From NCBI RefSeq assembly GCF_016841685.1, contig NZ_JAENYR010000019.1, positions 1 through 55,859 on the forward strand: a DNA stretch of 55,859 bases, given 5' to 3'. The notes under the pieces are model-generated. The model saw only the letters and a list, made by a program, of their open reading frames with translations, searched no databases and had not been told where the DNA came from. This document shows positions 9,469-54,131 of the stretch, one piece after another. The stretch comes from Thiohalomonas denitrificans (lineage in GTDB: Bacteria; Pseudomonadota; Gammaproteobacteria; Thiohalomonadales; Thiohalomonadaceae). Each line of letters opens with the position of its first letter. The first letter of the stretch is position 1. The position numbers were made by a program, and so were the translations under genes.

Positions 9469-9481
9469 GCATCGCAGCAAA

Positions 9482-9841: not shown

Positions 9842-9985
9842 TCCAGCGATCCTATGGATTTGGTCGAGGAGCAATTGCCGAAGCAGTGAGGTTATCCATC
9901 CGGTCCCGGCAAGAGGGATTGAGCGCACCCCCAGTCTCTGCTATAGACTGTCCCCTGAGCCAACTCAACAGTACCGGGTACTTTC

Positions 9986-10297
9986 TTGCATCCTTTGATA
10001 GCACGCCACAATAGAGAAATAGCAGCACTATGCCGCCGCTATCATGTGCGCCGGTTGGAAGTCTTCGGTTCGGCGGCACGCGGAAATGACTTCGATCCCG
10101 AGCACAGCGATGCCGATTTCCTGGTCGAATTTGAAGCCGAAAACGATATGGCCACCCTAGGGCAATTCTTCGAGTTTAGGGATCAACTCTCAGGTGTGGT
10201 CGGCCGCCCCGTCGATCTCGTGGAAGCCGGTGCGGTACGCAATCCCTATATCCTTGAAAGCATCAATCGTTCTCGCGAGGTGGTCTATGGAACGTGA
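9986..10297 (+). CDS. mntA: MntA-type nucleotidyltransferase antitoxin
   Basis: A 103-residue minimal nucleotidyltransferase. It has the GSAARG motif (28-33) and the metal-binding SDADFLVEF (41-49). In the known MntA/HepT pairs the enzyme transfers AMP units to a tyrosine of the HEPN toxin and thereby silences it. The frame begins with TTG (9986) and overlaps the HEPN gene by 11 nt. No strong ribosome binding site is visible before the TTG, so the exact start is uncertain. Confidence 0.88.
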   Translation: MHPLIARHNREIAALCRRYHVRRLEVFGSAARGNDFDPEHSDADFLVEFEAENDMATLGQFFEFRDQLSGVVGRPVDLVEAGAVRNPYILESINRSREVVYGT

Positions 10298-10637
10298 TCC
10301 TCGCAGCTATCTTTGGGATGTGCAGGCGGCAGCAGAGGATATCCAGTCTTTCATTAAAGGTGTCGATCTCGATGGTTACGCCGAAAACTCCATGCTCCAT
10401 TCGGCAGTAGAGCGTAAATTGGAGATCATTGGCGAGGCGCTCAACCAGTTATCCAAGACCGCCCCCGACCTGGCTAGCCGAATACCCGATCTACCCGCGA
10501 TTGTCGCCTTTCGAAACCTCCTGATCCACGGTTACGCGATCGTAGATCATCGACGGGTCTGGGGGACGCTCAACGAATCGCTGCCATCGCTACGCATCAC
10601 GGTCACTGCCTTGCTGGAGGAGTTGGGGCCTCCCTGA
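10287..10637 (+). CDS. hepT: HepT-type HEPN ribonuclease toxin
   Basis: A 116-residue all-helical HEPN toxin. RNLLIHGY (76-83) supplies the Rx4H catalytic motif (Arg76, His81) and the tyrosine (Tyr83) that MntA partners modify, i.e. the Rx4HxY form. ENSMLHSAVERKLEIIGEAL is the conserved DUF86 helix. It overlaps mntA, fitting a translationally coupled toxin-antitoxin pair. The module looks intact, unlike most others in the island. Confidence 0.9.
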   Translation: MERDPRSYLWDVQAAAEDIQSFIKGVDLDGYAENSMLHSAVERKLEIIGEALNQLSKTAPDLASRIPDLPAIVAFRNLLIHGYAIVDHRRVWGTLNESLPSLRITVTALLEELGPP

Positions 10638-11970: not shown

Positions 11971-12388
11971 CACCCGCGCCCTAACTAAGGATGGGATATA
12001 CTGGCCCCAGCCATGGACAGCGAGGAGCTTGTATTTCCTCGTGTAGGCTACGGTCGGAGGCGGCTAATGGGTGTCCCCGGAATTCCCTGTACCTGCTTGG
12101 CACCGGTGGGATACGATGTGCAAAAGAATTTACGGATGAGGATTGCACGGACGTGCCAACCGCCCTTCTCAAAACAGAAAAAACTAATGGTTCGCCAGGC
12201 AAAGAGTATGGAGCCGAAGCCTTAAATGGGCCCATCCGAACTCGTGCCTCCGGTTTATTTGACTCTGACCCCGTTTATCCGAGCTCAACGCCTCCGGTAC
12301 TAACGTCGGCCAGTCGCGGTCACTTGGCGTACCTGAAGCATGCGTATACTGTGACCGGAATGTCCACAGGGTTTAGTTGCCGGTGAAA
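11971..12388. other. gene-poor stretch before the hydrolase-ATPase unit
   Basis: No open frame here resembles a known protein. It contains the 24-bp motif at 12254-12277 (TTTATTTGACTCTGACCCC...). It also holds a possible promoter for the next gene, TTGGCG at 12324 and TATACT at 12345, whose 15-bp spacing is shorter than ideal. Base composition changes to A+T-richer DNA just downstream. Confidence 0.4.
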
Positions 12389-14092: not shown

Positions 14093-14097
14093 TTGAC

Positions 14098-16692: not shown

Positions 16693-16784
16693 AGCACGAA
16701 GAGGGGTCGGGTGTTTCCTAGTGAATGCACAAGCTTGTTAGACACCTAATTTTCAGGTGACCCCGCTCAACCCCTTCGAAACTG

Positions 16785-19700: not shown

Positions 19701-20048
19701 GGTGCCGTAGACGGTCTCCTCGCCATCGGTTCGCACGCAGATGTAGGCTTTCAAATGGAAGCTGCCCGATCCTGCCTCATGCACCCGAACCTCGGCACCC
19801 TCGTCGCCAAGCAGCATGAGCATACGCAGTGCTTGGGGATCGGTCACGTCGAGGTAATCACTGGTCAGCACCCGCAGTCGCGCTTTGCGGACGGTGACCG
19901 CCTCGCTCAATGCATCGTAGAGCAGCTCGAGACCGCTGGCCTTGATGAAGGCGACAGCGAAGTCGATCTCATTGGCCTGGCGAATGGCCTCGAGCAGGCG
20001 CGGTAGAAAGGGGTCGTTGGGTCCGCCGGTGGTCAGATAGGGAGGCAT
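16785..20048 (-). CDS. PLD nuclease - SF2 helicase - LexA-like - DUF3427 protein
   Basis: A 1087-residue protein. The N-terminal phospholipase-D-like nuclease domain has FHLKAY (HxK near 98) and VGSSN. The superfamily 2 helicase has Walker A MATGLGKTYLAAF near 233, the DEFH box IVVDEFHHAAANTY, GLTATPERTD, and motif VI QQLGRGLRR. A helical region follows, then an S24/LexA-like fold with IGDSMNG (Ser near 860) and LLRKVTK (Lys near 909). DUF3427 sequence forms the C-terminus. It likely acts on DNA; a defence or repair role is inferred. The chosen ATG is preceded by GGAGG at good spacing, and the start overlaps the upstream methyltransferase by 16 nt. A longer frame to 20126 exists but lacks support. 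Confidence 0.85.
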   Translation of the reverse strand: MPPYLTTGGPNDPFLPRLLEAIRQANEIDFAVAFIKASGLELLYDALSEAVTVRKARLRVLTSDYLDVTDPQALRMLMLLGDEGAEVRVHEAGSGSFHLKAYICVRTDGEETVYGTAFVGSSNISATALQDGLEWNYRIGLPNADHPEPERFDEIRNAFVRLFNNPNARPLDHAWIEAYEQRRQSHPLPVAPGSDDPELPPPEPTSVQQEALAALAETRRQRYARGLVVMATGLGKTYLAAFDSQQMNAGRVLFVAHREEILLQAENTFQRIRPRARVGRYTGTRKDDQVDLLFASVQTLGQAHHLERFAPGQFDYIVVDEFHHAAANTYRRLLNHFQPRFLLGLTATPERTDQSDILSLCDDNLVYTCDLFQGVNEKLLCPFTYYGIHDESVEYDAIPWRNGRFDPDALSNKLATLARARHAWREWQEKRQRRTLAFCVSQRHADFMADHFRKEGIKAAAAYAGSKLGRGEALDALREGQLEVIFSVDLFNEGVDLPAIDTVMMLRPTESKILFLQQLGRGLRRHEGKERLVVLDFIGNHRGFLNKPQALFNVSGTYRSLAAFARKAEQGKLQLPEGCYVNYDLAIINFLKRLDSKGIQQDYQALKDTLGRRPTLAELYRAGVSMPQLRKQYGHWWALVQDQGDLSAEEEVCFARHADFFRDMEVERMNKSFKMVLLESLLENGGFLDPPKLEGLSSQALDVFRRRRSLIGDIIPELQDIEQIDSGAWHRYWSRNPIHHLAHEGKKWFETVDGRFRPRFPVEPSEIEPFESMLQELVDYRLADYQAHRPATDETSAPPSADVVPFPQPTEGTELPYFPNVRIACGYFRVGRADTEEYRTLGPGHGRLDPARHFIARAIGDSMNGGKHPIHDGDYLLLERMDTGNAGAITGSIVVIERQDTTGDDQYLLRKVTKTPDGHHILKATNPDYPDYTADETMRTLARLRAVLDPLELATGQTFMREEIPELFGESFNPGNWHAGHVVLNHPRRHILLVTLNKQGKSAEHRYHDYFIDEHTFHWQSQNRTTPESAWGREIIEHEQRGIEVHLFVREQKLIGGKAAPFRYIGQVRYQGHQGSGPMNVIWSMVQ

Positions 20049-20644
20049 GGTGCCTCCGGCTTTCGGAGCAGTGCGTTGAGCCAACGCTCGTCCCGGCGGT
20101 CGGGACGCTGGTCGCCGGTTTGCCACATTTCAATTAGTGTCAGGCCACCGGTCTCGGGCAGGAGTTGGCGCAGACCGGCTTCGTCCAGATCGGTGAAGCG
20201 GCGTCCACCCGCCTCACGCTCTCCCGTGCCGTATTTGAACGAGCAGTATAGAACCCCGCCCGGCTTGAGCGCATTGGCCAGGCGCTGGAACACGTTCGGC
20301 AGCTCACGCCGGGGAACGTGCAGCAGGCTGGCACAGGCCCAGATGCCATCGAACTTATCGTGCCAGGAGAGCTCCTCGAAGCGCAGCACCTGCACCGACT
20401 GACCCAGGTGCTCTGTCGCCAGCGCGGCGAGCGTCGGCGCAGAATCGAAGGCAGTGACACGGTAGCCGAGCTCCAGAACGGCACGGGCATCGCGCCCGGA
20501 GCCACAGCCGGCATCCAGAATGTGTCCGTTCGCAGGAAGGTGCTTCAGAAACGGACCATGAAGAGGCGCCATCTCGACAGCGACCGTGTCACGGAAGAAG
20601 CTGGTGGCGTGCTGCTCGTAGTAGTCGCTGTCGTCCTGGGGCAT
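20033..20644 (-). CDS. class I SAM-dependent methyltransferase
   Basis: A 203-residue Rossmann methyltransferase. Motif I is HILDAGCGSGRDARAVLELG (about 36-55), followed by the acidic residue in VTAFDSAP. DGIWACASLLHVPRREL is the motif IV region. Similar small enzymes include TehB-like and type-11 methyltransferases; the substrate is unknown. Its 3' end overlaps the start of the PLD-helicase gene by 16 nt, so the two are co-translated. That makes a modification-plus-nuclease unit conceivable, although a DNA target is not indicated by any DPPY-type motif. Confidence 0.85.
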   Translation of the reverse strand: MPQDDSDYYEQHATSFFRDTVAVEMAPLHGPFLKHLPANGHILDAGCGSGRDARAVLELGYRVTAFDSAPTLAALATEHLGQSVQVLRFEELSWHDKFDGIWACASLLHVPRRELPNVFQRLANALKPGGVLYCSFKYGTGEREAGGRRFTDLDEAGLRQLLPETGGLTLIEMWQTGDQRPDRRDERWLNALLRKPEAPCLPI

Positions 20645-33891: not shown

Positions 33892-36075
33892 ATGTTTGTT
33901 CGTCGAGTACTTCAGCACGTTCATGCGCTGCTAGCCGTGGCGCTCATTCTTTCTCTAGCTGCCTGCGGAAGTGATGGCAGCGATGGCGCCGATGGTCAGC
34001 CGGGACCGGGCACCGTAACAACGGCGAAGGCGCTGGACGTTCAGGTCTCCAGCGTTGAAATCGAGAGTCCACCAGTCGTCGAGTTCTACATCGAAGACGA
34101 GTACGGCATGCCGTTCACCGGCCTGACCGCCGGAGATGTGCGCTTCACCATTGCCCAGTTGAAACCGGGCGCCAATGGCGAGCCGAGTGCCTGGCAAAAC
34201 TATATCAACAAGACCGAAGAGGCGGGCAGCGTCGGATCCGGCACCGAAGACAAGGTGCAGGCCAACTATGAGAGCGCCACCAATGGCACCTTCGTCAATA
34301 ATGGCGATGGCTCCTACACCTACACCTTTGCCACCGATATCACCAACGTGACCTCGCCCGTGGCGGTCCCCTACGAACCCTCCCGGACCCATCGCCTGGC
34401 GATGCAGCTCGAGAAGGGGGTGCCGGTCACCAATGTGATCTACACCTGGCAGCCCTCCACGGGGACCACCAGCGGCATCACCAGCCGCGAGATCGTGAAG
34501 ACCGACTCCTGCAATGAGTGCCACGGCAAACTCGCTTTCCACGGCGGCGGTCGCATCGACACCCGCTACTGCGTGACCTGCCACAATCCGGGCAGCGCCG
34601 ACGCCAACAGCGGCAACACCATCGACGCCAAGGTCCTGTTCCACAAGCTGCACATGGGGGCCAATCTGCCCAGCGTCGTGGCAGGTGGCACCTACAGCAT
34701 CTTTGGTCATCGCGACAGCGAGCACGACTATTCCGATTTGCACTTTCCGCAGGACGTGCGCAACTGCACGAAGTGCCATGACGGCGCCGACAGCGATACC
34801 CCGGACGCGGACAACTGGAAGAATCGTCCCAGCGCCGAGGCCTGCGGCTCCTGCCATGACGACGTCGAGTTCGATACCGGGCTCAACCATACGGGCGGTG
34901 TCGCCGACAACAGCATGTGCAGTGGCTGCCACGCCAGTAGCGGCTCGGCCGGTCCGGTGGCCGATTCGCACGTTATCCCGACGCATGTGGCGAGAGAGCG
35001 GTTCGCCTATAACATTACCGGGGCGAGCTACGATGCGGGCACCGGGACGGTCAGTGCCAACTTCACCATTACCGATCCGGCCAACGGCGATGCGCCCTAC
35101 GACCTCACCGAGGCGGACTGGGCGACCAGCACCCTGCGACTCAATATCGCCTGGGACAGTCGTGACTACACCAATACCGATAGCGCCAACGGCGTCTCCA
35201 AGGCGGTGCAGATTGCCTTCCTGAGCAGTGGTGCCCTGGACCCGGCCTATCACTCCTACGATGCCGGCACCGGGGTGCACACGGTAACGTCCGATCCCCT
35301 GCCGCTCGCGGCACAGGCCGCGGGCAGCGGTTCGGTGGCCATCGAGGGCTATCCGAAGTCCGATGTGGACGGTGTGATCGTTAACACCCCGATCACGAGC
35401 GCCGTGGAGTATTTCGCCATCAGCGATGGTTCCGCCCGGGCGCGGCGTCAGGTGGTCGACAATGCCAAGTGCCTGCAGTGCCATGAGACTCTGTCGCTGC
35501 ACGGCAACAACCGCGTGAACGACACCGCCATCTGCGTTACCTGCCACAACCCCAACAACACCGACATCTCCGTGCGACCGGCCGGTGCGGTCAGCGGTAT
35601 CGATGGCAAGCTGGAAGAGTCCATCGACTTCAAGCGGCTGGTCCATGCCATCCATGCCACCGGCTTCCGCGAGAATCCCGTTGTCTTCTACGGGCATCGG
35701 GGTAGCGTGCATGACTACAGCGGGCTTCGCTTCCCGGGGATTCTGGGCAACTGTCAGACCTGCCATGACGGTGACAGCTATGCGCTGCCACTCGCCGGCG
35801 AGGTATTGCCGAGCGTTATCGACACCACGGATGCGGGGACGGCCTCGGATTCGGATTTTGTCGACACCGATCCGGCTAACGACCTGATGATCACGCCGAC
35901 CGCGGCGGTCTGCTCCTCCTGCCATGACAAGGCCGTTGCCCAGGCACACATGGAATACAACGGCGCACAGTTCAATGTCGACCGTGTAACGGCAGCGGGA
36001 AGAATCGAGGTGTGTGAAACCTGCCATGGCCCGGGTCGTACGGCGGATGTTGCCGTCATGCACGGCATCGAATAG
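33892..36075 (+). CDS. mtrC: outer-surface decaheme c-type cytochrome (MtrC/OmcA family)
   Basis: A 727-residue lipoprotein: signal peptide with lipobox LAAC (Cys25). It has ten CxxCH heme sites in two groups of five: CNECH, CVTCH, CTKCH, CGSCH, CSGCH (about 207-345), then CLQCH, CVTCH, CQTCH, CSSCH, CETCH (about 527-710). The stretches before each group (25-205 and 350-525) are beta-rich. This is the four-domain plan of MtrC/OmcA, the terminal reductase on the cell surface that hands electrons to minerals or other extracellular acceptors. AGGAGG precedes the ATG. It leads the mtrC-mtrA-mtrB operon. Confidence 0.94.
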   Translation: MFVRRVLQHVHALLAVALILSLAACGSDGSDGADGQPGPGTVTTAKALDVQVSSVEIESPPVVEFYIEDEYGMPFTGLTAGDVRFTIAQLKPGANGEPSAWQNYINKTEEAGSVGSGTEDKVQANYESATNGTFVNNGDGSYTYTFATDITNVTSPVAVPYEPSRTHRLAMQLEKGVPVTNVIYTWQPSTGTTSGITSREIVKTDSCNECHGKLAFHGGGRIDTRYCVTCHNPGSADANSGNTIDAKVLFHKLHMGANLPSVVAGGTYSIFGHRDSEHDYSDLHFPQDVRNCTKCHDGADSDTPDADNWKNRPSAEACGSCHDDVEFDTGLNHTGGVADNSMCSGCHASSGSAGPVADSHVIPTHVARERFAYNITGASYDAGTGTVSANFTITDPANGDAPYDLTEADWATSTLRLNIAWDSRDYTNTDSANGVSKAVQIAFLSSGALDPAYHSYDAGTGVHTVTSDPLPLAAQAAGSGSVAIEGYPKSDVDGVIVNTPITSAVEYFAISDGSARARRQVVDNAKCLQCHETLSLHGNNRVNDTAICVTCHNPNNTDISVRPAGAVSGIDGKLEESIDFKRLVHAIHATGFRENPVVFYGHRGSVHDYSGLRFPGILGNCQTCHDGDSYALPLAGEVLPSVIDTTDAGTASDSDFVDTDPANDLMITPTAAVCSSCHDKAVAQAHMEYNGAQFNVDRVTAAGRIEVCETCHGPGRTADVAVMHGIE

Positions 36076-36081
36076 AGGCCA

Positions 36082-36107
36082 GCGCGGGCGCCTTCGGGCG
36101 CCTGCGC
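36082..36107 (+). promoter_or_regulatory. strong TTCG-loop hairpin between mtrC and mtrA
   Basis: GCGCGGGCGCC, loop TTCG and GGCGCCTGCGC form an 11-bp stem with one G-T pair, 6 bp after the mtrC stop. No T-run follows. It could stabilise the mtrC transcript or attenuate read-through into mtrA and mtrB. Confidence 0.55.
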
Positions 36108-36177
36108 CGGGGATCGAAACCACAGCTAAGCCGGCAGGGAGGCCGGCCCCTTTAAAGTGGACCCTGTGAGGTGCCTT

Positions 36178-37131
36178 ATGCGACAACGACGGGCTTATGC
36201 CATTGCGGCCCTTCTGTTCCTGATTTCTATCGGCTTCACCGTATCGGCGCAGGAAAGCGAAGAGACTTCGCCGACCTACACCGACCGCGGCGCTGACCGC
36301 TGCCTGAAGTGCCATGACGAATTTTCCGAGTTTCCCGTCATGGATATCTTCAAGACCAAACATGCCGAGAGCTCGGACCCACGCACGCCTTTCGCGAAAC
36401 TGCAGTGCGAGACGTGCCACGGACCGGGATCCGAACACGCCGACATGGCCATCGATGATGACGAGGAAGAGCGGCCGCCGATCCGCGACTTCGGCCATCG
36501 CGGGGCGGAAACACCGGTGGCCGAGCAGAATGCGGTCTGTCTGAGTTGTCACGATGACCGTCACCGAAACGACTGGCGTGGCAGTGCCCACCAGACCGGA
36601 CAGGTGGCCTGTGCCGACTGTCATCGGATCCATACCACCCATGACCCGGTGCTCACGCCCTCGGAAGAGCCGCAGGTCTGTTTCCAATGCCATACGCGGG
36701 AGCGTTCGGAGAGTTACCGTGCCTCGTCGCATCCGTTGCGCTATGGCCTGATGAGTTGCGGATCCTGTCATGAACCCCATGGTTCCTTGACCGAATCGAT
36801 GCTGCGGCGCTCGACACTCAATCAGACCTGCTACGAGTGTCATGCGGAGAAGCGCGGGCCCTTCCTCTGGGAGCACGCTCCCGTTAGCGAAGACTGCACC
36901 CACTGCCATCAACCCCATGGCTCGAACCATCCGGCGCTACTGACGCAGCGTGCGCCTCTGCTGTGCCAGCGCTGCCATTCACAGGCGGGTCATCCCAGCA
37001 TCGCCTTCACCGGCGACCTGTTGTCCGGCGCATCGCCCACTGCGGGGCTGCTGCTCGGACAGAGCTGCATGAATTGCCATTCCCAGGTGCACGGCTCCAA
37101 CCACCCCTCCGGGGTCAACCTGAAGAGGTGA
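36178..37131 (+). CDS. mtrA: periplasmic decaheme c-type cytochrome (MtrA/DmsE family)
   Basis: A 317-residue exported protein: signal peptide MRQRRAYAIAALLFLISIGF then TVSAQ. Ten CxxCH motifs occur in order: CLKCH, CETCH, CLSCH, CADCH, CFQCH, CGSCH, CYECH, CTHCH, CQRCH, CMNCH. Number and spacing match MtrA, which threads through the MtrB barrel and wires the periplasm to MtrC. The start at ATG 36178 has GAGG upstream and gives a clean signal peptide; a GTG start at 36157 is possible. It is 3 bp from mtrB. Confidence 0.94.
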   Translation: MRQRRAYAIAALLFLISIGFTVSAQESEETSPTYTDRGADRCLKCHDEFSEFPVMDIFKTKHAESSDPRTPFAKLQCETCHGPGSEHADMAIDDDEEERPPIRDFGHRGAETPVAEQNAVCLSCHDDRHRNDWRGSAHQTGQVACADCHRIHTTHDPVLTPSEEPQVCFQCHTRERSESYRASSHPLRYGLMSCGSCHEPHGSLTESMLRRSTLNQTCYECHAEKRGPFLWEHAPVSEDCTHCHQPHGSNHPALLTQRAPLLCQRCHSQAGHPSIAFTGDLLSGASPTAGLLLGQSCMNCHSQVHGSNHPSGVNLKR

Positions 37132-37134
37132 TGT

Positions 37135-39258
37135 ATGACCAGACTGAATCGACGTTTTTTGGCAGGACAGCCGGTGGTCGGCTTGATCCTGATCGGAGTT
37201 TCAACCAGCGGTGCGGCCGCTGAACTGTGGACCCAGGCTGGAGAGGTGGACAAGTCGGAGTGGGAGTGCAAGTACTGTCTGTTCGAGAGTGGACTCAGCG
37301 GTGATGTGCAGTTGGGGGTCGGCTCCGTGGACGAAGATCAGTTCGGCTTCGGCAATTACACCGGCTATGACGACGACGGCGCCTACCTCGTTCTCGGAGC
37401 GGACTTGCGTTACCGGGGAGAGGAGGCCGCCTACTGGCGACTGAACAGCTCGCGTCTGGCACTGGATAGCCGGAGTGTCCGGCTCGAAGGTGGTCGTCAG
37501 GGTAGTTACCGGGTCGGCGTCGACTACCTGGAGATACCCCGGCTCTACTCCGACAGGGCAGAGACCCCGTTCACCGGAGTCGGCGGCAACGACTTGCAGC
37601 TTCCGGATAACTGGGTCAAGGCGGGCACTACCGACGGCATGACCGAGCTGGACAACAGCCTGCGTCCGGTCGCGTTGCGGACCGACCGTCGCCGGGTCGG
37701 TGTCGGCGTGGAGATTACCCCGACCTCACGCTGGAGCTATTCAGCCGACTTCCGGCGCGAGAGGAAGGAGGGGCTCAACGTGATCGGCGGTTCGGTGCTG
37801 TTCCGCAGCGCCCTGCTGCCGGAACCGGTGGACTACACCACCGAACAGCTTGATCTGGGGGTAGGTTATCAAGGGGATCACTGGAATGTTCAGGTCGGCT
37901 ATTACGGCTCATTTTTCCGGGACGATAACCGGTCACTGCGCTGGGACAACCCCTTCGGCGACCCGACCGGCGCCAACGAAGGGCAATTGGCGCTGCCGCC
38001 GGACAATGAGTTCCATCAGGTGACCCTGTCCGGCCGATACGATGTCAGTGAAGCGACCCGGGCCAGTGCCAGGGTGTCGCTGGGGCGTATGACCCAGAAT
38101 GATGAATTCCTGCCGTATACGGTCAACCCCTCCCTCACCACGGGCGGGTTGCCCCGGGATTCGCTCGAGGGTGAAATCCGCACCGCCAATCTCGATGCGA
38201 GGCTGGTGTCTGCCTGGAATGAACGTCTTACTCTGCAGGCGGATTTTCGCCACGACGAGCGTGACGATGAGACGCCCACCGACAGCTTCGATTATGTCAG
38301 TACCGATGCCATTCTGCCGGGTGCCCGCGAAAACCGGCAGTACGACCGCCGGGACAGCCGGTTAGCGATGCAGGGACGCTATCAACTGACGCCGAAAACG
38401 CGGGTGTCGACAGGCGCGGACTACGATCGAAAGAGACGGCCCGATGAGGAGGTCGAAGAGACACAGGAGACCACCGTCTGGGCCGAAGCCGCCTCCCGGC
38501 TCCACCCCACCAGCCAGCTGGTCGTCGGCCTCGCTTATGCGGATCGGGATGCGTCGGAATACCGGGTAGTGGATGCCGCGATCCCGGAGCAAAACCCGCT
38601 GATGGTGAAGTTCAACATGGCATCGCGGGAGCAGGAACGGGCGGAGGCGCGCCTGACCGTTTCACCGCGAGAACACATCGACTTCGGAGTCGAATTCGCC
38701 TATCGGGACAACGACTATACGGACGGGGCCATCGGGCTGCGCTCGAGCCGTGACACCAGCGTCAGCTTCGATGCCACGGTGCTGGTCAGTAGAAGCCTGA
38801 GTTTCCATGGCTTCGCCAGCCGGGAAGTCCACGACAACGAGCAGACCGGCAGTCAGAACTTTTCGGTTCCCGACTGGTTCGCAACCACCGAGGACGACAT
38901 CAACAGTGCCGGCGTCGGGGTGTCGTGGGAGGTCTTCCACGACAGCTTCACCCAGAAAGGGCTGAACCTGAGCCTCGATTACGTTCGCTCCGACGCTACC
39001 GGAAAGATCGGCATTAGGAACGAGACCGATTTTCCGGACCTGGAAAGCTCGGTGACCAGTATCCAGGCGCAGGCTCGCTATCGGGTCAGCGAAACGGTCT
39101 CGACCGAGCTTGCCTACTACTACGAGCGGTTCGAGAGCGATGACTGGATGGTGGACGGGGTCGAGCCCGATACGCTGCCGACCGTGCTCACTCTCGGCAG
39201 TGAGGGCCTGGACTACGACAATCACGTGATTGCCGCCTACGTCCGCTACCGGTTTTAG
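37135..39258 (+). CDS. mtrB: MtrB/PioB-type outer-membrane beta-barrel
   Basis: A 707-residue protein with a signal peptide (residues 1-29). The N-terminal CKYC pair (Cys45, Cys48) is a mark of MtrB from several metal reducers. Alternating amphipathic strands run to a C-terminal aromatic residue (AYVRYRF), as expected for an outer-membrane barrel. It sheathes MtrA and holds MtrC at the surface. It follows mtrA by 3 bp, and a hairpin lies 16 bp after its stop. Confidence 0.93.
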   Translation: MTRLNRRFLAGQPVVGLILIGVSTSGAAAELWTQAGEVDKSEWECKYCLFESGLSGDVQLGVGSVDEDQFGFGNYTGYDDDGAYLVLGADLRYRGEEAAYWRLNSSRLALDSRSVRLEGGRQGSYRVGVDYLEIPRLYSDRAETPFTGVGGNDLQLPDNWVKAGTTDGMTELDNSLRPVALRTDRRRVGVGVEITPTSRWSYSADFRRERKEGLNVIGGSVLFRSALLPEPVDYTTEQLDLGVGYQGDHWNVQVGYYGSFFRDDNRSLRWDNPFGDPTGANEGQLALPPDNEFHQVTLSGRYDVSEATRASARVSLGRMTQNDEFLPYTVNPSLTTGGLPRDSLEGEIRTANLDARLVSAWNERLTLQADFRHDERDDETPTDSFDYVSTDAILPGARENRQYDRRDSRLAMQGRYQLTPKTRVSTGADYDRKRRPDEEVEETQETTVWAEAASRLHPTSQLVVGLAYADRDASEYRVVDAAIPEQNPLMVKFNMASREQERAEARLTVSPREHIDFGVEFAYRDNDYTDGAIGLRSSRDTSVSFDATVLVSRSLSFHGFASREVHDNEQTGSQNFSVPDWFATTEDDINSAGVGVSWEVFHDSFTQKGLNLSLDYVRSDATGKIGIRNETDFPDLESSVTSIQAQARYRVSETVSTELAYYYERFESDDWMVDGVEPDTLPTVLTLGSEGLDYDNHVIAAYVRYRF

Positions 39259-41369: not shown

Positions 41370-42824
41370 TCACACAGAAGGCAGCTTATAGCCTTTTTCC
41401 TCGAACAGACCTTGGCAGGCATCCACCGCCAGCGGGTCGTATAAAACCCCTCGCTGTTGCGTCACTTCTTCCAATGCCTTTTCGGTCCCAAAAGCGGGCC
41501 GGTAGGGTCGGAAAGATGCGATGGATTCCACTACGTCAGCTACGGTGATAATGCGGGCGCCGGTGATGATCTGGTCGGCCTTGAGCCCCCGGGGATATCC
41601 CGAGCCGTTCAGACGTTCGTGGTGCTGCAGCACCATCTCGGCGACCGGCCAGGGAAACTCGATCACTTTCAGGATTTCGTAACCCACCTGAGCGTGGGTC
41701 TTGACCAGATCGAACTCGATCAGACCGAGTTTGCCGGGAAAGCTGAGGATTTCGGCCGGGACGTGAATCTTGCCCACATCATGGATGCTCGCGGCAAGGA
41801 AAATGCCGTGAACTTCCTCTTCGGGCAGCTCCAGCTCCCGGGCGATGTGGGCGGCGAGGTCGGCCACCCGTCGCTGGTGTCCGGCCGTATAGGGATCGCG
41901 CCTCTCTATGGTGGACGCCATCGCTTCCACCGTGGTTTCCATGCTCCTTTCCAACCGTAACAGGAACTGCTTCCGTTGCTCCTCCAGCCGCTCTCGCTCG
42001 GTGACATCCTGTACCGCACCGTCCCAAACGATACTGCCGTCCTCCTGTAGCGTAGGCATGGCATTGAACAGAATATGCCGCTCGTTGCCGTCCTGGTCCT
42101 GCCAGCGAAAGACTCGATTGACGCGGCCGACCGTCCGGGTGAGCCGGGTGGCCGCCTCGAAATCCTCCCGATCCTCGGGTAGCAGACGGGAGAAAAAGCA
42201 GTCCCCATCGGCCAGCAGCTCCGTCGGCGTCACAGCCAGCGTTGCCCGCGATCCTTCGCTCACATAGGCAAACTGAAACGCCCCGTCCGGATAACGCACG
42301 AGCTGAAACAGCATCTCCGGCACGTTGTTGGCCATGGCAATAAAGCGATGTTGGGAGGAGAGCCGCGTTAGCGTAGATCTGAACAGGCCCGCCACAGCCA
42401 GGTAGAGATTGAGGGTTTTTCGCGACAACGGTTCGGCCTGGCGGTGGCCGATAATCATTACCGCCCCCATCGCCGTGCCCTGGTTCAGGGCCAGGAATGC
42501 CAGGGCGTAGTCCTCGCCCAGATTCACCTGCTCGGTAGCCAGGAAACCATTTTCAAACACCTGGCGCATGGTGTGATTGGTGGCCTTGACGAGGTCAGAG
42601 CAGGCTGTACCGGCCGCGACGCAATGGTGCAGCACCAATTGCCCGTCGGTCCGGCGGGTAACGAATGCGGCCAGGTCGGCACCGAGAAAATGCACCGCTA
42701 CCTTTCCCAGTTCGGCCCAGATATCGCGTTCCGATTGCAGCCCCGCGAGATACTGGGCGGTCTTGATGACCGCGTCGAGCTTCTCCTGCCCGTGGGACAG
42801 CGGGTGATGGTCCGAGTGAGTCAC
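41370..42824 (-). CDS. GAF-PAS-HD-GYP signalling protein
   Basis: A 484-residue cytosolic protein. An N-terminal GAF-like domain (about 15-155) is followed by a PAS domain (about 165-280, with PAC-like HILFNAMPTLQEDGSIVWDG) and an HD-GYP domain (about 295-480). The HD-GYP has HDVGKIHVPAEIL (His348, Asp349) and HHERLNGSGYPRGL (about 401-414), so the cyclic-di-GMP phosphodiesterase site looks complete. It starts with GTG only 1 nt after the stop of the ferredoxin-ASKHA gene, with AAGGA inside that gene, so it is the last gene of the corrinoid operon. The GAF or PAS domain may sense the state of that pathway; this is inference. Confidence 0.9.
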   Translation of the reverse strand: MTHSDHHPLSHGQEKLDAVIKTAQYLAGLQSERDIWAELGKVAVHFLGADLAAFVTRRTDGQLVLHHCVAAGTACSDLVKATNHTMRQVFENGFLATEQVNLGEDYALAFLALNQGTAMGAVMIIGHRQAEPLSRKTLNLYLAVAGLFRSTLTRLSSQHRFIAMANNVPEMLFQLVRYPDGAFQFAYVSEGSRATLAVTPTELLADGDCFFSRLLPEDREDFEAATRLTRTVGRVNRVFRWQDQDGNERHILFNAMPTLQEDGSIVWDGAVQDVTERERLEEQRKQFLLRLERSMETTVEAMASTIERRDPYTAGHQRRVADLAAHIARELELPEEEVHGIFLAASIHDVGKIHVPAEILSFPGKLGLIEFDLVKTHAQVGYEILKVIEFPWPVAEMVLQHHERLNGSGYPRGLKADQIITGARIITVADVVESIASFRPYRPAFGTEKALEEVTQQRGVLYDPLAVDACQGLFEEKGYKLPSV

Positions 42825-42825
42825 G

Positions 42826-44418
42826 TCAATCGTCCTTTATCGGGCGTAGGTAAAGATTTTCAAGGAACAGGTCGTCGAAAGCGGGATAGTATGACAAGTT
42901 GATGAGTTTGGGCAGCTTCCGCAGCCGGGACAAGCGCTCGGCTGCTTCCGACGACAGCATCACGTCGGCGCAACCGGCGAGGGCGGTGTTTCCCACGAGC
43001 TCAACCCGCTCCGGCGGCACCGGTGGCAACAATCCGACTTCCTGTCCGCTCGTCACATCGAGATAGCGTCCGAAGGCCCCGGCTACGCAGATTCGCCGCA
43101 GCTCCTGCGTGTGAATCCCCGCTTCACGGCAGAGGGCAAGCGTGCCCACGGCAATAGCCGCCTTGGCTCGCTGAAAGGCATCGACATCCCGTTTGGTGAG
43201 AAGCATTTTCTGTCCGCCCACCGTAAAGGCGTAAGCCTGTTTTTGCATGAAATTCCCCGTAGCGGTAAGAATATTCCCTTCCCGTAAGCGGGCGATCAGG
43301 TCCACCAAACCCGAGCCACACACCCCTTTGGCCCGATCATCGCCCAAGAGGTGGAAATCCAGACGTCCTTCTATAGAGGAGACACGGTACACCGCTCCTG
43401 GTTCGGCAGGCATACCGAAATCTCCACTGCTCTCGAACGCCGGCCCGCCTGCCGCTGCAGTCACATGCAGCGTGCGACCGTCCCAGAGAGCGACTTCGGA
43501 ATTGGTGCCGACGTCCACAAACAGGGCCGGTGCAATGCCTTCGGAAAGCCCGGTCGCCACTATTCCTGCCAACAGATCCGAACCCACAAACCCCGCCAGG
43601 GGCGCCAATATCTCCATCTCCGCTTCGGGATGGACGGACCATCGTTCGGTCCAGGACGTATAGTCGGCTGGCTGACAGTCGATAAACTCGGTCCAGTTTT
43701 CCGGGCGAAGGAGTAGCGCGTAGTTCCGGCCGGTGAACAGGCACAACATCGCCGTATTCCCGACCAGGGTGATCCAGGCGATCCGCCGCAGGTCCAGGCC
43801 ATGCCGCACAGCGATATCCTGTAGTGCTTCCCCGATCGCATCCGCCACCGCTTCACCCATTTCCTGCGCAGTCTCTTCCGACGCGGCCGCCGCACTGAGA
43901 CGGGTCAGCACGTCGGCCCCCCACGCTCCCTGGGGATTGCGTCCCCAGCGGTCGGCGAACCAGCGACCTTCGGGCAACTCGAACACCGAAAGACAAATAT
44001 TGGTGGTGCCCACGTCGATGGCAAGCCCGCAGGGGTGCCTTACATTGGGCAACTCACGGAGGACGTCCGAGCCGGGTATATCGCCCCGCCGCCACAGACC
44101 CTCCGGTGTTGCGTGCCAATTGGAGGGGGCTGCCGGGTTCAGCACATCGATCGTCAGATCGTCCAAAGGGTGCATCTGGCAGGCCAGCCGCTCCCCGCGT
44201 TCCAGCCGTCGCTCGTGAAGGTGGAATTGCTCGCTCCTGGTCACCGGTCCGCCCGCACCCGACAGCAGGCGCACCCGACACAGTCCGCAGGCCCCGTTAC
44301 CACGGCATCCGGAGCGCACCCGAAACTCGGTGGACTCCAACAAATCCCGGACCGACGAGCCGGGCTCGAACGAAAGCGAGTGAACTTCGCCGCAGAAATG
44401 GATGGTCAGGACTGCCAT
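42826..44418 (-). CDS. ferredoxin-ASKHA reductive activator of corrinoid proteins (RACE, DUF4445)
   Basis: A 530-residue protein. An N-terminal 2Fe-2S ferredoxin domain has ligands Cys38, Cys44, Cys47 and Cys80 (SGCRGNGACGLC ... LAC). A long ATPase of the ASKHA type follows, with AIDVGTTNICLSVF, ITLVGNTAMLCLF, LFVDVGTNSEVALW and GAFGRYLD. Such proteins use ATP and a reduced iron-sulfur cluster to return inactivated cob(II)alamin to cob(I)alamin in methyltransferase systems. It overlaps the upstream methyltransferase by 13 nt. Confidence 0.92.
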   Translation of the reverse strand: MAVLTIHFCGEVHSLSFEPGSSVRDLLESTEFRVRSGCRGNGACGLCRVRLLSGAGGPVTRSEQFHLHERRLERGERLACQMHPLDDLTIDVLNPAAPSNWHATPEGLWRRGDIPGSDVLRELPNVRHPCGLAIDVGTTNICLSVFELPEGRWFADRWGRNPQGAWGADVLTRLSAAAASEETAQEMGEAVADAIGEALQDIAVRHGLDLRRIAWITLVGNTAMLCLFTGRNYALLLRPENWTEFIDCQPADYTSWTERWSVHPEAEMEILAPLAGFVGSDLLAGIVATGLSEGIAPALFVDVGTNSEVALWDGRTLHVTAAAGGPAFESSGDFGMPAEPGAVYRVSSIEGRLDFHLLGDDRAKGVCGSGLVDLIARLREGNILTATGNFMQKQAYAFTVGGQKMLLTKRDVDAFQRAKAAIAVGTLALCREAGIHTQELRRICVAGAFGRYLDVTSGQEVGLLPPVPPERVELVGNTALAGCADVMLSSEAAERLSRLRKLPKLINLSYYPAFDDLFLENLYLRPIKDD

Positions 44419-45431
44419 GGCGGCACCGTGGAGCAGGCGGCGATCATGGCCTCGATGTTCTCCGGTTTCGATTCAGGCGGGATCTCGCAGCCGGAAGAGA
44501 GCAGAAACCCGCCCCGTCCGGCAAAGCTGTCGCGGAGCGCCGCCGCGGTCTTGAAGACCTGCTCTGGCGTGGCCTCAACAAAATCCAGCGACTTGAGGTT
44601 GCCGTCCAGGCAGGTGTGGGGCAGGCAGCGCTGGGCCTCGGTGGCACTCACGTAGTAATCGAAGTTGGCGATCTCGGCGCCGGCCTCCGCATGCAAAGGC
44701 AGAATCGGTGCCGTTGGCCCGGCGATATTGAGCCAGGTGGTGATTGCACCGTTCTGCCGGAAGGCGGAGAGCACCTTTTTCAAGCGGGGCAGCAAAAACT
44801 CGCGGAAAAACGCCGCCGGCACTACCGCCGGGGAAGCGGAAGGGTCAAACACCACCGGCACGTGCGCTCCCGCCTGCAACTGTGCCTTGCCGAAGGTAAT
44901 GATAACGTCCGTTGCGTAGTCCAGCAGCCGCTCGAAGCCGTCCGGATCGTCGGCGGCGAAATAGAGGGCATCCTCGATACCGACCAATTGGGTGGCGAGG
45001 GTCATGGGTCCCACCACGCTACCGGCAATCAGCAACCGGTTACCCGCTTCCTGGCGCAATAGCGAAACGGCATGCAACAGTTCCGGCATGCGTCCATCTT
45101 GCCGGGGCTCGGGGATCCGCAGCCTTGCCGGGTCATCACCCGGCCTCAACGCGTACTTTGCGACATCCGGGTAAAGTTCATCACGGTAAAGCAGGGTTGA
45201 ACCGACCGCTTCGGTCTCCACGGACAAATCCATGAAGGCGAATACGGCATCATGCCCGTAGCGGGCCTCGGCGGAGAGCTGACAGCGGGCCAGCAGTGCA
45301 CCGTCGTGCAGGTAGTCCACCAATTTGATGCCCGCCAGGACCGCTGCATGGCCGAACAGTTGCGGTACCACCGGCAGCCGGTCGGTGGGTTGGAAACGTA
45401 CTGCCGCCATTACCCTTTCCAGACCGTTCAT
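44406..45431 (-). CDS. uroporphyrinogen decarboxylase-family methyltransferase
   Basis: A 341-residue UroD-fold protein of the corrinoid methyltransferase branch (MtaA/CmuA-like), not heme synthesis. Features include RFQPTDRLPVVPQLFGHAAV, GPMTLATQLVGIEDALYFAA and SSGCEIPPESKPENIEAM. In MtaA-type enzymes zinc is held by an HxC pair in an IHxCG segment plus a later Cys. Here the corresponding stretch reads TTWLNIAGPTAPILP, so the HxC pair is missing while the later Cys remains. It may bind a different methyl acceptor or donor. It overlaps the corrinoid gene by 4 nt (ATGA). Confidence 0.85.
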   Translation of the reverse strand: MNGLERVMAAVRFQPTDRLPVVPQLFGHAAVLAGIKLVDYLHDGALLARCQLSAEARYGHDAVFAFMDLSVETEAVGSTLLYRDELYPDVAKYALRPGDDPARLRIPEPRQDGRMPELLHAVSLLRQEAGNRLLIAGSVVGPMTLATQLVGIEDALYFAADDPDGFERLLDYATDVIITFGKAQLQAGAHVPVVFDPSASPAVVPAAFFREFLLPRLKKVLSAFRQNGAITTWLNIAGPTAPILPLHAEAGAEIANFDYYVSATEAQRCLPHTCLDGNLKSLDFVEATPEQVFKTAAALRDSFAGRGGFLLSSGCEIPPESKPENIEAMIAACSTVPPWQS

Positions 45432-46078
45432 TGCGCATCCCCCACCAGGTCGTCGAGAAAGCGGGCTCCATCAAAGGCGGTCTCCGCCACATAGTCCACA
45501 TCCAGCGCTTCCGGCGTCGCCTGCTTCAGCGCCGCGCCGCCTGCGACAATGGTGATGTGTTCGAGACCTCTTGCCGCCAGGGCCGGGCGGACCTTCCGCA
45601 CCTCGCGGATCACCGACGTGATCAGACCGCTGACCAGGACCGCCCGGGCATTCTCCCGTGCTGCCGCTTCCACCACCGTCTGCACCGGGCAGTCCTTCCC
45701 CAGGTCGACCACCCGGTATCCCTTGCCGATTAGCACCATCTTGGTAACGTTCTTGCCGAGGTCGTGGACATCGCCCTCCAGGGTCGCAATGATGAAGGTT
45801 GCCTTTCCGGCGGTCGGTGGCTCGCCTCCCGGATACAGCTCGTTGACGACGGCCGAAACCGCCCGTCCCACCAGCATGATCTCCAGAAGATTGAAACCTT
45901 CTACCGTACATTTTTCGTCGAGTCTGCTCATGGCCGCCTCGAGGCCCTCAGTCACAATTCGCTCGCGCGGCAGTCCGGAGGCCAGGAGAGCCTGCGTTTC
46001 CCTCAGAGCAGAGGTATGGTCGCCATCCAGCAGAGCCGCCATCAGAGGTTTCAGTTCGGGGGCGAGGTCTTCACTCAT
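45428..46078 (-). CDS. corrinoid-binding methyl carrier protein
   Basis: A 216-residue protein of the MtaC/MtbC type. The N-terminal helical cap (about 1-85) includes KCTVEGFNLLEIMLVGRAVS. The B12 domain has EGDVHDLGKN with His105 as cobalt ligand, VLVSGLITSV, and IVAGGAALKQ. It carries the methyl group between donor and acceptor proteins. It is the first gene of the four-gene operon; no separate substrate-specific MtaB/MttB-type methyltransferase is present. The frame is open to 46306, but ATG 46078 starts the domain. No cobalamin riboswitch was recognised upstream. Confidence 0.9.
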   Translation of the reverse strand: MSEDLAPELKPLMAALLDGDHTSALRETQALLASGLPRERIVTEGLEAAMSRLDEKCTVEGFNLLEIMLVGRAVSAVVNELYPGGEPPTAGKATFIIATLEGDVHDLGKNVTKMVLIGKGYRVVDLGKDCPVQTVVEAAARENARAVLVSGLITSVIREVRKVRPALAARGLEHITIVAGGAALKQATPEALDVDYVAETAFDGARFLDDLVGDAQ

Positions 46079-46385
46079 CGTTGTACAGCCGAAGAAAGCG
46101 ACGGCACGATACCCCGGGCAAACGGGGCCCCAGGCTATCTCCTGCTTGCCTGTTGCATAGGCTACATGGTCGCCCCATGTCCAAACTCCATCGCGAACGC
46201 TCTTTCTCAGCGTAGCAAAACGGAATACCGCACTCTGTCCAGGTGTGTAGGGGATGCTGATGCGAATGGTCCGCCGCCAAGGGGTGGGCCGGCTGCTCGG
46301 AAGCAAAATCGACGTGCGCTTTACGCCCAGTAACTCCCCAGGCGGATATCAAATCCGCCGGGGCGTTCTGTGTAATAATGAACGG

Positions 46386-50351: not shown

Positions 50352-53300
50352 ATGAGTCAAATCCTGAAGCGCCTGACCTACTTCAAGCGCGAGCGGACAT
50401 CGTTCTCGGGGGAGCATGGAATCCTCACCACAGACGACCGGGCCTGGGAGGACTCCTACCGCCAACGGCAACAGCACGACAAAATCGTGCGCTCCACCCA
50501 TGGTGTGAACTGCACCGGGGGTTGTAGTTGGAAGATTTACGTCAAGAATGGTCTGGTGACCTGGGAGATCCAGCAGACCGATTACCCCCGCACCCGCCCC
50601 GATATGCCCAACCATGAACCACGCGGTTGCCCCCGCGGCGCCAGCTACTCCTGGTATCTCTATAGCGCCAATCGCCTCAAATACCCCTTGATTCGTGGCC
50701 GTCTGCTTCGGCTCTGGCGCAAGGCCAGGGAGCAGCACGGGGACCCGGTAACGGCTTGGGGTTCCATCGTTGAGGATCCGGATAAAGGCAAGGAGTACAA
50801 GAGCAAGCGCGGCATGGGCGGCTTTGTTCGCGGCGACTGGGAGGAGGTCACCGAGCTGGTTGCCGCCGCCAACGTCTACACCATCAAGAAATATGGTCCG
50901 GATAGGGTCGCCGGTTTTTCACCGATTCCGGCCATGTCGATGATCTCCTATGCCGCCGGTACCCGCTACCTCTCACTGATTGGTGGTGTCTGCCTGAGCT
51001 TTTATGACTGGTATTGCGATTTGCCGCCCGCGTCACCGCAGACCTGGGGTGAGCAGACCGATGTGCCCGAATCGGCCGATTGGTACAACTCCGCTTTTAT
51101 CATCATGTGGGGCTCCAACGTTCCGCAGACCCGCTCACCGGATGCCCATTTCATGACCGAGGTGCGCTACCGCGGCACCAAGACGGTGGTGGTTTCTCCA
51201 GACTACTCCGAAGGTTCCAAGTTCGCCGACATCTGGTTGCATCCCAAGCAGGGCACCGATGCTGCAGTGGCCATGGCTATGGGCCACGTCATTCTCCGGG
51301 AGTGGCACCTGGATGGCACGAGCGAGTACTTCGACAGTTACGTTCGCCAGTACACCGATATGCCAATGCTGGTGAAGCTCGAAAAGCAGAACGGACGTTG
51401 GGTTCCCGGACGTTACCTGCGTGCCAGTGATTTTTCCGATGGGCTGGGACAGAAGAACAACCCCGAGTGGAAGACAATTGCTCTCGAAGAGGGCAGCGAC
51501 GACTTTGTCCTGCCACACGGGAGTATCGGCTTTCGCTGGGGTGAGGATCGGAAGAGAAAGGGCAGGTGGAACCTGGAGCCGAAGGACGCCCGCGACGGCA
51601 AGGAGCGCAAACTGCGGCTGACGCTACTGGACAAGCACGACGATGCGGTGCCGGTGGCGTTTCCCTACTTCGGCGGTGGCGAGCAGGCCAGTAAGCACTG
51701 GTCGCATACGCAGCACGAGGCGATCCTCGAACGCGTCGTGCCGGTGCGCAAGATCACGTTGGCGGATGGTGAAGAGGCGCTGGTCACCACCGTGTTCGAT
51801 CTGAGTTGCGCCAACTATGGTCTCGACCGGGGACTGGGGGGCGAGAATGTCGCCGCCGACTTCGACGACGACTTGCCCTATACGCCGGCCTGGCAGGAGC
51901 GCATCACCGGTGTACCCCGCGACCGCCTCATCACGGTCGCCCGCCAGTTCGCGGAAAATGCTCACAAGACGCACGGCAAATCCATGGTGATCATCGGCGC
52001 GGGGATGAACCACTGGTACCACATGGATATGAACTACCGCGGCGTCATCAACATGCTGATGATGTGCGGCTGTATCGGTCAGAGCGGTGGCGGCTGGGCG
52101 CACTACGTCGGTCAGGAGAAGCTTCGCCCGCAGACCGGCTGGCTGCCGCTGGCCTTCGCGCTGGACTGGGCGCGGCCGCCGCGGCAGATGAACTCCACGT
52201 CGTTTTTCTACATGCACAGCAGCCAGTGGCGCTATGAGAAACTCAAGATTAGCGAGATTCTCTCGCCGCTGGCCGACCCCGCACAGTTCACCGGCAGTGT
52301 GGTGGATTACAATGTGCGCGCCGAGCGCATGGGCTGGCTTCCCAGTGCGCCCCAGCTCTCCCGCAACCCGCTGGAGATTGTGCGTGATGCTACTGCCGCT
52401 GGCGTTGATCCCAAGGAGTATGTCGTGCAGGGCCTCAAGGACGGCTCCCTGGGTTTCGCCAGCGAAGACCCGGATGCTCCCAATAACTACCCACGCAATA
52501 TCTTCATCTGGCGCTCCAATCTGTTGGGGGCCTCCGGTAAGGGGCATGAGTATTTTCTCAAATATTTCATGGGCGCGGAGAGCCAGCATGGCGTCCTGGG
52601 CCTGGACCTCGGCAAGGACGAGGGCGAGGTCAAGCCCGAGGAGGTGGTATGGCGAGAGCGGGCCGTCGAAGGCAAGCTGGACCTGATGTGCACGCTGGAC
52701 TTTCGCATGTCCACCACCTGCCTCTACTCGGATGTGGTATTACCCACCGCCACCTGGTATGAAAAGGACGACCTCAACACCACCGATATGCACCCCTTTA
52801 TCCATCCCCTTTCCAAGGCGGTGGATCCCGCCTGGGAGTCACGCTCGGACTGGGACATCTACAAAACCATTGCCCGCAAATTCTCCGAGGTGACCCAGGG
52901 ACATCTGGGCGTCGAGAAGGATATCGTCACCGTACCGATCCTGCACGATTCACCGGGGGAGCTTGCCCAGCCACTGGACGTCAAGGAGTGGAAGAAAGGG
53001 GAATGTGAACCGATCCCCGGCAAGACCATGCCCAACCTCGCAGTCATCGAGCGCGATTATCCCAATACCTATCGCAAGTTCACCTCGCTGGGTCCGTTGA
53101 TGGATACGCTTGGCAATGGCGGAAAGGGGATCACCTGGAAGACCGAAGAGGAGGTGCAGAAGCTCGGGGCACTGAACAAGACCGTCGATATCGAAGGCGT
53201 GAGTCAGGGCCGCCCGCGAATCGATAGCCCGATTGATGCCTGCGAAACCATTCTCATGCTGGCACCCGAAACCAACGGTGAAGTGGCCGTCAAGGCCTGG

Positions 53301-54131
53301 GCGGCGCTGTCGAAGATCACCGGCCGCGACCATACTCATCTTGCCCGTCCCAAGCAGGACGAGAAGATCCGTTTCCGCGACTTGCTCGCCCAGCCGCGCA
53401 AGATTATCAGCTCACCCACCTGGAGCGGTCTGGAATCCGAACACGTCTCCTACAACGCCGGCTACACCAATGTGCATGAGCTGATCCCCTGGAGGACCTT
53501 GAGCGGTCGCCAGCAGTTCTATCAGGACCATCCCTGGATGCGCGGCTTCGGCGAGGATCTGTGCGTCTACAAACCGCCGGTGGATACCAAGACCATTGCA
53601 CCGATCAAGGGCCACCACCCCAACGGCAACCCCGAGATCGTCCTCAACTTCATCACCCCGCACCAGAAGTGGGGTATCCACTCCACCTACACCGACAACC
53701 TGATCATGCTCACCCTCTCGCGGGGCGGTCCCATTATCTGGATGAGCGAGGTGGATGCGAAGAAGGCCGATATCGAGGACAACGACTGGATCGAGGCCTA
53801 CAACATCAACGGCGCCATCACCGCACGATCGGTGGTCTCACAACGCATACCCGAGGGTATGGCGATGATGTACCACGCCCAGGAAAAGCTGGTGCATACG
53901 CCCGGTTCGGAGATGACCGGACGCCGCGGCGGCATTCACAATTCGGTGACCCGCACCGTGCTCAAGCCCACGCACATGATTGGCGGCTATGCCCAGCTCA
54001 GCTGGGGGTTCAACTACTACGGCACTGTCGGCTCCAACCGCGACGAGTTCATCATCGTCCGACGCATGGACAAGGTCGACTGGCTGGCCGGCGCACCGCG
54101 CCACATCCTGACCAAAGTGGAGGGCGAATAG
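50352..54131 (+). CDS. narG: respiratory nitrate reductase, alpha subunit
   Basis: The 1259-residue molybdenum catalytic subunit reducing nitrate to nitrite at the cytoplasmic face of the inner membrane. The FS0 4Fe-4S ligands are His50, Cys54, Cys58 and Cys93 (STHGVNCTGGCSW ... EPRGCPRGA), the same spacing as E. coli NarG. The molybdenum ligand is Asp223 in YDWYCDLPPASP. There is no Tat cleavage signal, as expected for NarG. AGGAGG precedes the ATG by 8 nt. No transporter or regulator gene lies upstream, and no clear FNR site was found. narH follows directly. Confidence 0.97.
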   Translation: MSQILKRLTYFKRERTSFSGEHGILTTDDRAWEDSYRQRQQHDKIVRSTHGVNCTGGCSWKIYVKNGLVTWEIQQTDYPRTRPDMPNHEPRGCPRGASYSWYLYSANRLKYPLIRGRLLRLWRKAREQHGDPVTAWGSIVEDPDKGKEYKSKRGMGGFVRGDWEEVTELVAAANVYTIKKYGPDRVAGFSPIPAMSMISYAAGTRYLSLIGGVCLSFYDWYCDLPPASPQTWGEQTDVPESADWYNSAFIIMWGSNVPQTRSPDAHFMTEVRYRGTKTVVVSPDYSEGSKFADIWLHPKQGTDAAVAMAMGHVILREWHLDGTSEYFDSYVRQYTDMPMLVKLEKQNGRWVPGRYLRASDFSDGLGQKNNPEWKTIALEEGSDDFVLPHGSIGFRWGEDRKRKGRWNLEPKDARDGKERKLRLTLLDKHDDAVPVAFPYFGGGEQASKHWSHTQHEAILERVVPVRKITLADGEEALVTTVFDLSCANYGLDRGLGGENVAADFDDDLPYTPAWQERITGVPRDRLITVARQFAENAHKTHGKSMVIIGAGMNHWYHMDMNYRGVINMLMMCGCIGQSGGGWAHYVGQEKLRPQTGWLPLAFALDWARPPRQMNSTSFFYMHSSQWRYEKLKISEILSPLADPAQFTGSVVDYNVRAERMGWLPSAPQLSRNPLEIVRDATAAGVDPKEYVVQGLKDGSLGFASEDPDAPNNYPRNIFIWRSNLLGASGKGHEYFLKYFMGAESQHGVLGLDLGKDEGEVKPEEVVWRERAVEGKLDLMCTLDFRMSTTCLYSDVVLPTATWYEKDDLNTTDMHPFIHPLSKAVDPAWESRSDWDIYKTIARKFSEVTQGHLGVEKDIVTVPILHDSPGELAQPLDVKEWKKGECEPIPGKTMPNLAVIERDYPNTYRKFTSLGPLMDTLGNGGKGITWKTEEEVQKLGALNKTVDIEGVSQGRPRIDSPIDACETILMLAPETNGEVAVKAWAALSKITGRDHTHLARPKQDEKIRFRDLLAQPRKIISSPTWSGLESEHVSYNAGYTNVHELIPWRTLSGRQQFYQDHPWMRGFGEDLCVYKPPVDTKTIAPIKGHHPNGNPEIVLNFITPHQKWGIHSTYTDNLIMLTLSRGGPIIWMSEVDAKKADIEDNDWIEAYNINGAITARSVVSQRIPEGMAMMYHAQEKLVHTPGSEMTGRRGGIHNSVTRTVLKPTHMIGGYAQLSWGFNYYGTVGSNRDEFIIVRRMDKVDWLAGAPRHILTKVEGE

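Follow-up and report, generated by a model that had tools for sequence, protein, structure and literature searches.

In a 55,859-nucleotide stretch of the Thiohalomonas denitrificans genome (RefSeq assembly GCF_016841685.1, contig NZ_JAENYR010000019.1; hereafter the window), we characterized a module whose constant feature, compared across related loci, is a predicted corrinoid methyl-transfer trio coupled to an exchangeable signalling output, and not c-di-GMP. With moderate confidence, we interpret the trio and its co-translated, exchangeable output as a sensory cassette, in which the trio would generate or process a signal that the output protein reads.

A corrinoid trio runs directly into a signalling gene

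A corrinoid carrier, a URO-D methyltransferase, a ferredoxin-ASKHA activator and a GAF-PAS-HD-GYP protein follow one another in this order on the minus strand, from position 46078 to 41370. The carrier and URO-D genes overlap by 4 nt, the URO-D and activator genes by 13 nt, and the HD-GYP gene starts with a GTG located 1 nt past the TGA of the activator gene, which bears out the sequence-only reading that all four genes overlap or nearly touch. The locus comprises the following features:

45428..46078, minus strand: corrinoid (B12-binding) carrier protein, 216 aa; Pfam B12-binding 3.7e-18; DVHDLG
44406..45431, minus strand: URO-D-fold corrinoid methyltransferase, 341 aa; Pfam URO-D 1.1e-67
42826..44418, minus strand: RACo/RACE-type reductive activator, [2Fe-2S] ferredoxin plus ASKHA ATPase, 530 aa; Fer2, Raco_middle, RACo_C_ter
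41370..42824, minus strand: GAF-PAS-HD-GYP signalling protein, 484 aa; HD_5 1.1e-33
42351..42803, minus strand: GAF sensor domain, residues ~8-158; alignment A4, AlphaFold2 model, Foldseek, GAF_3 match in the relative L061
41970..42347, minus strand: PAS domain, residues ~160-285; weak PAS_3/PAS_4 below cut-off, NCBIfam sensory_box 24.1 bits (cut-off 22.9)
41400..41957, minus strand: HD-GYP phosphodiesterase domain, residues ~290-475; HD_5, HDVGK, KTHA, HHERLNGSGYP
46079..46253, no strand: divergent intergenic region; the next gene, at 46254 on the plus strand, encodes a CxxCxxCC protein

The divergent region 46079..46253 is the likely promoter side of the operon. A separate promoter for the HD-GYP gene would be at odds with its linkage to the trio; no sigma-70-like match was found at the activator/HD-GYP junction, which is weak evidence (2 matches in the scan of the whole stretch against 1.4 expected in shuffles) and leaves the link in place. 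The carrier holds the cobalt-histidine motif DxHxxG (as DVHDLG) in its B12-binding domain, counts MetH, 1y80 and MtaC among its PDB relatives, and gives pyl_corrinoid-, MtgC- and MtaC-like NCBIfam matches, all below their cut-offs. The activator matches Fer2, Raco_middle and RACo_C_ter (7.6e-58) in Pfam and the RACo structure 3zyy in the PDB (1.6e-58); with its ferredoxin motif CRGNGACGLC...LACQ, it combines the [2Fe-2S] domain and the ASKHA domains by which RACo/RACE proteins are defined.

Elsewhere in the window, about 2 kb from the module, genes for an OmcA/MtrC-like multihaem cytochrome, an NrfB-like multihaem cytochrome in the MtrA position and an MtrB/PioB porin stand in a row on the plus strand (33892-39258) and constitute an MtrCAB-type extracellular electron conduit. 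The same strand carries NarG, the alpha subunit of respiratory nitrate reductase (50352-54131), and the cobalamin-dependent methionine synthase MetH (347-4198). MetH shares the contig with the module, and cobalamin is therefore used in this genome, whose other corrinoid genes were covered by targeted searches. Judged by eye, a lower-GC patch at 12377-20126 (47% in 12001-16000) resembles a mobile or defence island; it encodes two large ATPase-like proteins next to a helicase-like one.

The signalling position is constant and its occupant is exchanged

Among related loci, a signalling gene directly follows the methyltransferase or activator gene in all 26 whose downstream side could be read, the window included. 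In 24 of these loci the spacing falls within -4 to +13 nt; it narrows to -4 to +3 nt in all ten that share the GAF domain described below, and L039 has a 298-nt gap. Five outputs are HD-GYP proteins (window, L004, L060, L061, L062), two are GGDEF proteins (L038 and L094, with GG[DE]EF and RxxD motifs, one of them on a Thiodictyon plasmid), 18 are histidine kinases (HisKA outputs in L005, L006, L039, L040 and 14 Nitrospirae-group loci), and one is a GAF gene cut at the contig end. The kinases were identified by Pfam in L005, L006, L036, L039, L040 and L063, and in the other Nitrospirae-group loci by 51-61% identity to the L063 kinase. The sequence-only reading had stressed a tight linkage to a c-di-GMP phosphodiesterase and called for a survey of the four-gene order. 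The same order indeed recurs in four further Pseudomonadota genomes, the HD-GYP gene is linked to the trio in the four relatives named above, and the linkage is real. However, c-di-GMP is not constant: in relatives the GAF head is also joined to a diguanylate cyclase or to a histidine kinase, and the differing outputs rule out c-di-GMP as an essential partner.

In the URO-D tree, 22 module enzymes group together (support 93/97). The five HD-GYP cases form one clade (100/99), the GGDEF cases fall in two places and the kinases lie elsewhere; with output types scattered over the tree in this way, the trio has stayed constant while its outputs were exchanged. The activator is retained in 24 of the 26 loci; in L039 (49-3481, minus strand) and L076 (7705-10481, minus strand), the module consists only of corrinoid protein, URO-D enzyme and kinase. 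In the Nitrospirae group, the trio is flanked by a sigma-54-type response regulator on one side and, on the other, by a PAS histidine kinase that lacks the shared GAF domain, and the URO-D enzyme and activator are usually one fused protein. Such a regulator is found upstream of the corrinoid gene in fourteen of the 18 kinase loci, with only fragments of the Nitrospirae-group regulator readable in L071 and L076. More distant corrinoid/URO-D control loci had no signalling gene beside the cassette; in the control L007, a GGDEF gene and an activator-like fragment are more than 1.8 kb away on the other strand.

Two neighbourhoods hold additional genes. In L061, a second HD-GYP protein (DUF3391 plus HD_5; 9333-10544, minus strand) is encoded just upstream of the module's corrinoid gene. 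In L063 (6787-9380, minus strand) and L065 (10957-15852, minus strand), the module adjoins a convergent operon whose genes encode CcmH, an FGE-sulfatase, and thioredoxin-like and DsbD-like proteins; in these Nitrospirae-group loci that operon is possibly a target of the module or a mere neighbour.

The module is patchily distributed

In a scan of one genome per species, three close URO-D relatives came from MAGs labelled Dechloromonas (61%), 'Deltaproteobacteria' (60%) and Sulfuricurvum (51%). All three have the same gene order and share the N-terminal domain of the fourth protein, which is an HD-GYP protein in the Dechloromonas MAG and a histidine kinase in the other two. A URO-D family profile (E at most 1e-60), searched in a sample of each group, was found in 17 of 24 genomes in the phylum of a Nitrospirae MAG, 5 of 297 in the phylum of the L005 genome (a group of uncertain name, labelled 'Deltaproteobacteria' and placed under Myxococcota in the tree), 4 of 200 in the family of the Dechloromonas MAG and 1 of 249 in the phylum of Sulfuricurvum. 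The figures were 1 of 398 for Pseudomonadota (the window's own genome) and 1 of 20 for the window's order, and the profile was absent from the other genome of the window's genus. Outside the Nitrospirae group, it is rare in these samples and scattered, the pattern that gene transfer would leave. One copy is located on plasmid pTs417 of Candidatus Thiodictyon syntrophicum, which is a finished record; the relatives are otherwise mostly metagenome-assembled. A phage origin was rejected, there being no match in phages or viral contigs.

The URO-D enzyme has lost the coenzyme-M zinc motif

The AlphaFold2 model of the URO-D enzyme (pLDDT 95) has 4ay8/4ay7 as its nearest PDB entries (TM 0.89), the coenzyme M methyltransferase MtaA being the best match, and scores 171.6 bits against TIGR01463, below the cut-off of 235.4. 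In the window enzyme, the zinc-binding His-x-Cys reads N-I-A and the last zinc Cys is retained as C315. Across the module enzymes, too, the last Cys is conserved. Ala or Thr replaces the first Cys in 22 of 22, and the His position is occupied by Asn, His, Ser or Phe; H-x-C is retained in five control URO-D proteins, some from the same genomes as modules. Asp68, Glu72, Glu74, Glu153, Trp233, Tyr259, Cys315 and Glu316 are invariant in the module enzymes.

S-methyltransferases of the URO-D superfamily use His-Cys-Cys ligands, and O-methyltransferases replace one or both Cys (PMC10418091); CdmB, which takes chloromethane as its substrate, is zinc-free (PMC13222342). Taken with this ligand pattern and with zinc-free CdmB, the lost zinc ligands suggest that a thiol such as coenzyme M is an unlikely partner of the URO-D enzyme, and an O-methyl or other donor would be possible. 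The module also sets apart a URO-D subfamily whose active site is unusual. It had been claimed that no substrate-specific gene is present, but this is not established: URO-D-fold enzymes such as CdmB and O-demethylases can themselves be the substrate-demethylating enzyme (PMC13222342), and the present subfamily lacks the coenzyme-M zinc motif.

A shared GAF domain heads ten output proteins

One GAF subfamily heads ten of the output proteins (alignment A4, with the Thiodictyon member assigned by separate comparison). In the window protein, Pfam called no GAF match and PAS_3 is weak, below the Pfam cut-off. The GAF label given earlier nevertheless proved correct, as the AlphaFold2 model of this region (pLDDT 87.6) matches GAF domains in Foldseek with a probability of 1.0; a search of the GAF profile against the sequences of solved structures gave nothing useful, in contrast to the fold search. 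Binding of haem or cobalamin via a conserved residue was rejected, as alignment A4 contains no invariant Cys or His. Within the 200 genomes of the Dechloromonas-MAG family, the genomes with the GAF subfamily are the same four that have the module, and within the 297 genomes of the L005 phylum it is present in three module genomes plus, weakly (1.8e-7), one generic GAF kinase; the profile was trained on module members, so only its absence elsewhere carries information.

The HD and GYP motifs of the window protein, including the metal ligands, are intact (HDVGK, HH, GSGYP). PDB relatives of the domain are 5z7c (V-cGAP3) and 4mcw, the closest solved chain by score being the cGAMP enzyme V-cGAP3; the nucleotide would presumably be c-di-GMP, with cGAMP as the alternative. 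The whole genome contains 18 GGDEF matches, and HD-GYP matches at two places. A c-di-GMP network therefore exists, within which the HD-GYP protein would act.

A sensory role and its alternatives

By domain content, the parts of the trio suffice for loading and unloading a methyl group on cobalt and for cobalt repair. In the modules read, there is no second methyltransferase (folate acceptor) passing the methyl group into metabolism, and every module has a signalling output; a sensory cassette is therefore the best reading. The URO-D enzyme would be specific for one small methylated compound and exchange a methyl group between it and the carrier's cobalt, and the activator would restore accidentally oxidised corrinoid to active Co(I). 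The signal would be the presence or flux of the compound, conveyed as the methylation state of the corrinoid or as an enzyme product. The GAF(-PAS) head of the fourth protein would read this signal and set the HD-GYP cyclic-dinucleotide phosphodiesterase, or a diguanylate cyclase or histidine kinase in relatives. More tentatively, the signal may specifically be the methylation state of the corrinoid on a separate protein. The enzyme-carrier pair would then be a new kind of signal input, and its reader a GAF domain that combines with HD-GYP, GGDEF or histidine kinase outputs. We build on gene order, coupling, conservation, output exchange, the predicted GAF fold, intact catalytic motifs and the loss of the coenzyme-M zinc motif; from these we infer that the trio would act ahead of the signal, what kind of ligand it may handle, which way the methyl group would move, a possible contact between corrinoid protein and GAF domain, and c-di-GMP as the nucleotide. 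The earlier suggestion of a link from corrinoid or one-carbon state to a second messenger is supported in its tie to signalling, but a second messenger is not the constant partner. Points against a sensory cassette are the GAF domain without invariant Cys/His, the two loci without activator, the wide gap in L039, the Nitrospirae kinase without the shared GAF and the largely metagenome-assembled nature of the relatives.

Co-transcription would equally fit an ordinary demethylation enzyme accompanied by its own sensor, where the trio breaks down or detoxifies a methylated compound without making a signal, and the GAF/PAS protein binds the compound independently to adjust lifestyle or expression. 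Ligand-binding regulators are often encoded within the operon they serve, small ligands of many kinds bind to GAF domains, type 1 mlp clusters are metabolic URO-D/corrinoid/activase sets without a folate methylase (PMC10418091), and kinase and sigma-54 response regulator flank the trio in the Nitrospirae group. We nonetheless consider this explanation less likely: no other catabolic gene is constant across the loci, the modules read contain no folate-acceptor methyltransferase, and the output is often a cyclic-dinucleotide enzyme instead of a local transcription factor.

Alternatively, the low-potential corrinoid and its activator could report redox or oxygen state to the output, methyl transfer being secondary. 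Co(I) corrinoids are labile to oxygen and oxidants, the activator is widely kept, and nitrate reductase and the MtrCAB conduit are encoded in the same window. A pure redox sensor would, however, have no need for the invariant acidic and Cys residues of the URO-D active site, and L039 and L076 dispense with the activator yet keep the URO-D enzyme, making this explanation quite improbable. Chance adjacency of the HD-GYP gene, spread by common descent, would fit the single HD-GYP clade but is so improbable as to be negligible, being contradicted by the locus survey, in which other clades hold different outputs at the same closely spaced position, control loci lack a signalling neighbour and the position is kept in 26 of 26 related loci, far beyond chance.

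If the sensory cassette reading is correct, organometallic methyl chemistry, familiar as a route into carbon metabolism, doubles as a sensor front end, and an environmental methylated compound could directly set cyclic-dinucleotide or phosphorelay signalling. The occurrence of opposite c-di-GMP enzymes (phosphodiesterase and cyclase) and of kinases behind one trio makes the sensor hypothesis testable.

Comparison with known systems

In the open-access literature, to which the search was largely confined, we found no description of this cassette, in which a corrinoid methyltransferase is paired with a signalling output. Type 1 mlp gene clusters (MGCs; Kountz and Balskus, PMC10418091) resemble the module in clustering a URO-D methyltransferase, a corrinoid protein and a Ram/RACE activase without a folate methylase. 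They differ in having at least two URO-D proteins (Mlp2 and Mlp3), His-Cys-Cys zinc ligands and no conserved synteny (PMC10418091), whereas the module has one URO-D gene without His-x-Cys, a fixed order and a signalling gene, and does not combine Mlp2 with Mlp3 as such clusters do. CdmB and O-demethylase methyltransferases share the URO-D fold and methyl transfer from substrate to corrinoid, and CdmB needs no zinc (PMC13222342); the sequence relation to the module enzyme is weak (9rui, E 8e-6), and the Cdm operon has a folate methyltransferase, which the module lacks. MtaA/MtbA and CmuA have the URO-D fold (4ay8, TM 0.89) and a partner corrinoid protein in common with the module enzyme, which has lost the zinc His-x-Cys and falls under the TIGR01463 cut-off.

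The defining feature of the MsmS and RdmS kinases of Methanosarcina is a conserved GAF Cys acting as a haem or thiol switch, whereas the module GAF shows no invariant Cys in alignment A4, and these kinases are not known to belong to a conserved trio with exchangeable outputs. As methyltransferase-associated sensor kinases they are similar to the module, but archaeal (PMC11784639). CarH-type cobalamin photoreceptors, some of them fused to a diguanylate cyclase, also tie a B12-binding domain to signalling (PMC11796333); they rely on B12 photochemistry in the same chain, whereas in the module the methyl carrier is a protein apart, served by a dedicated methyltransferase and activator.
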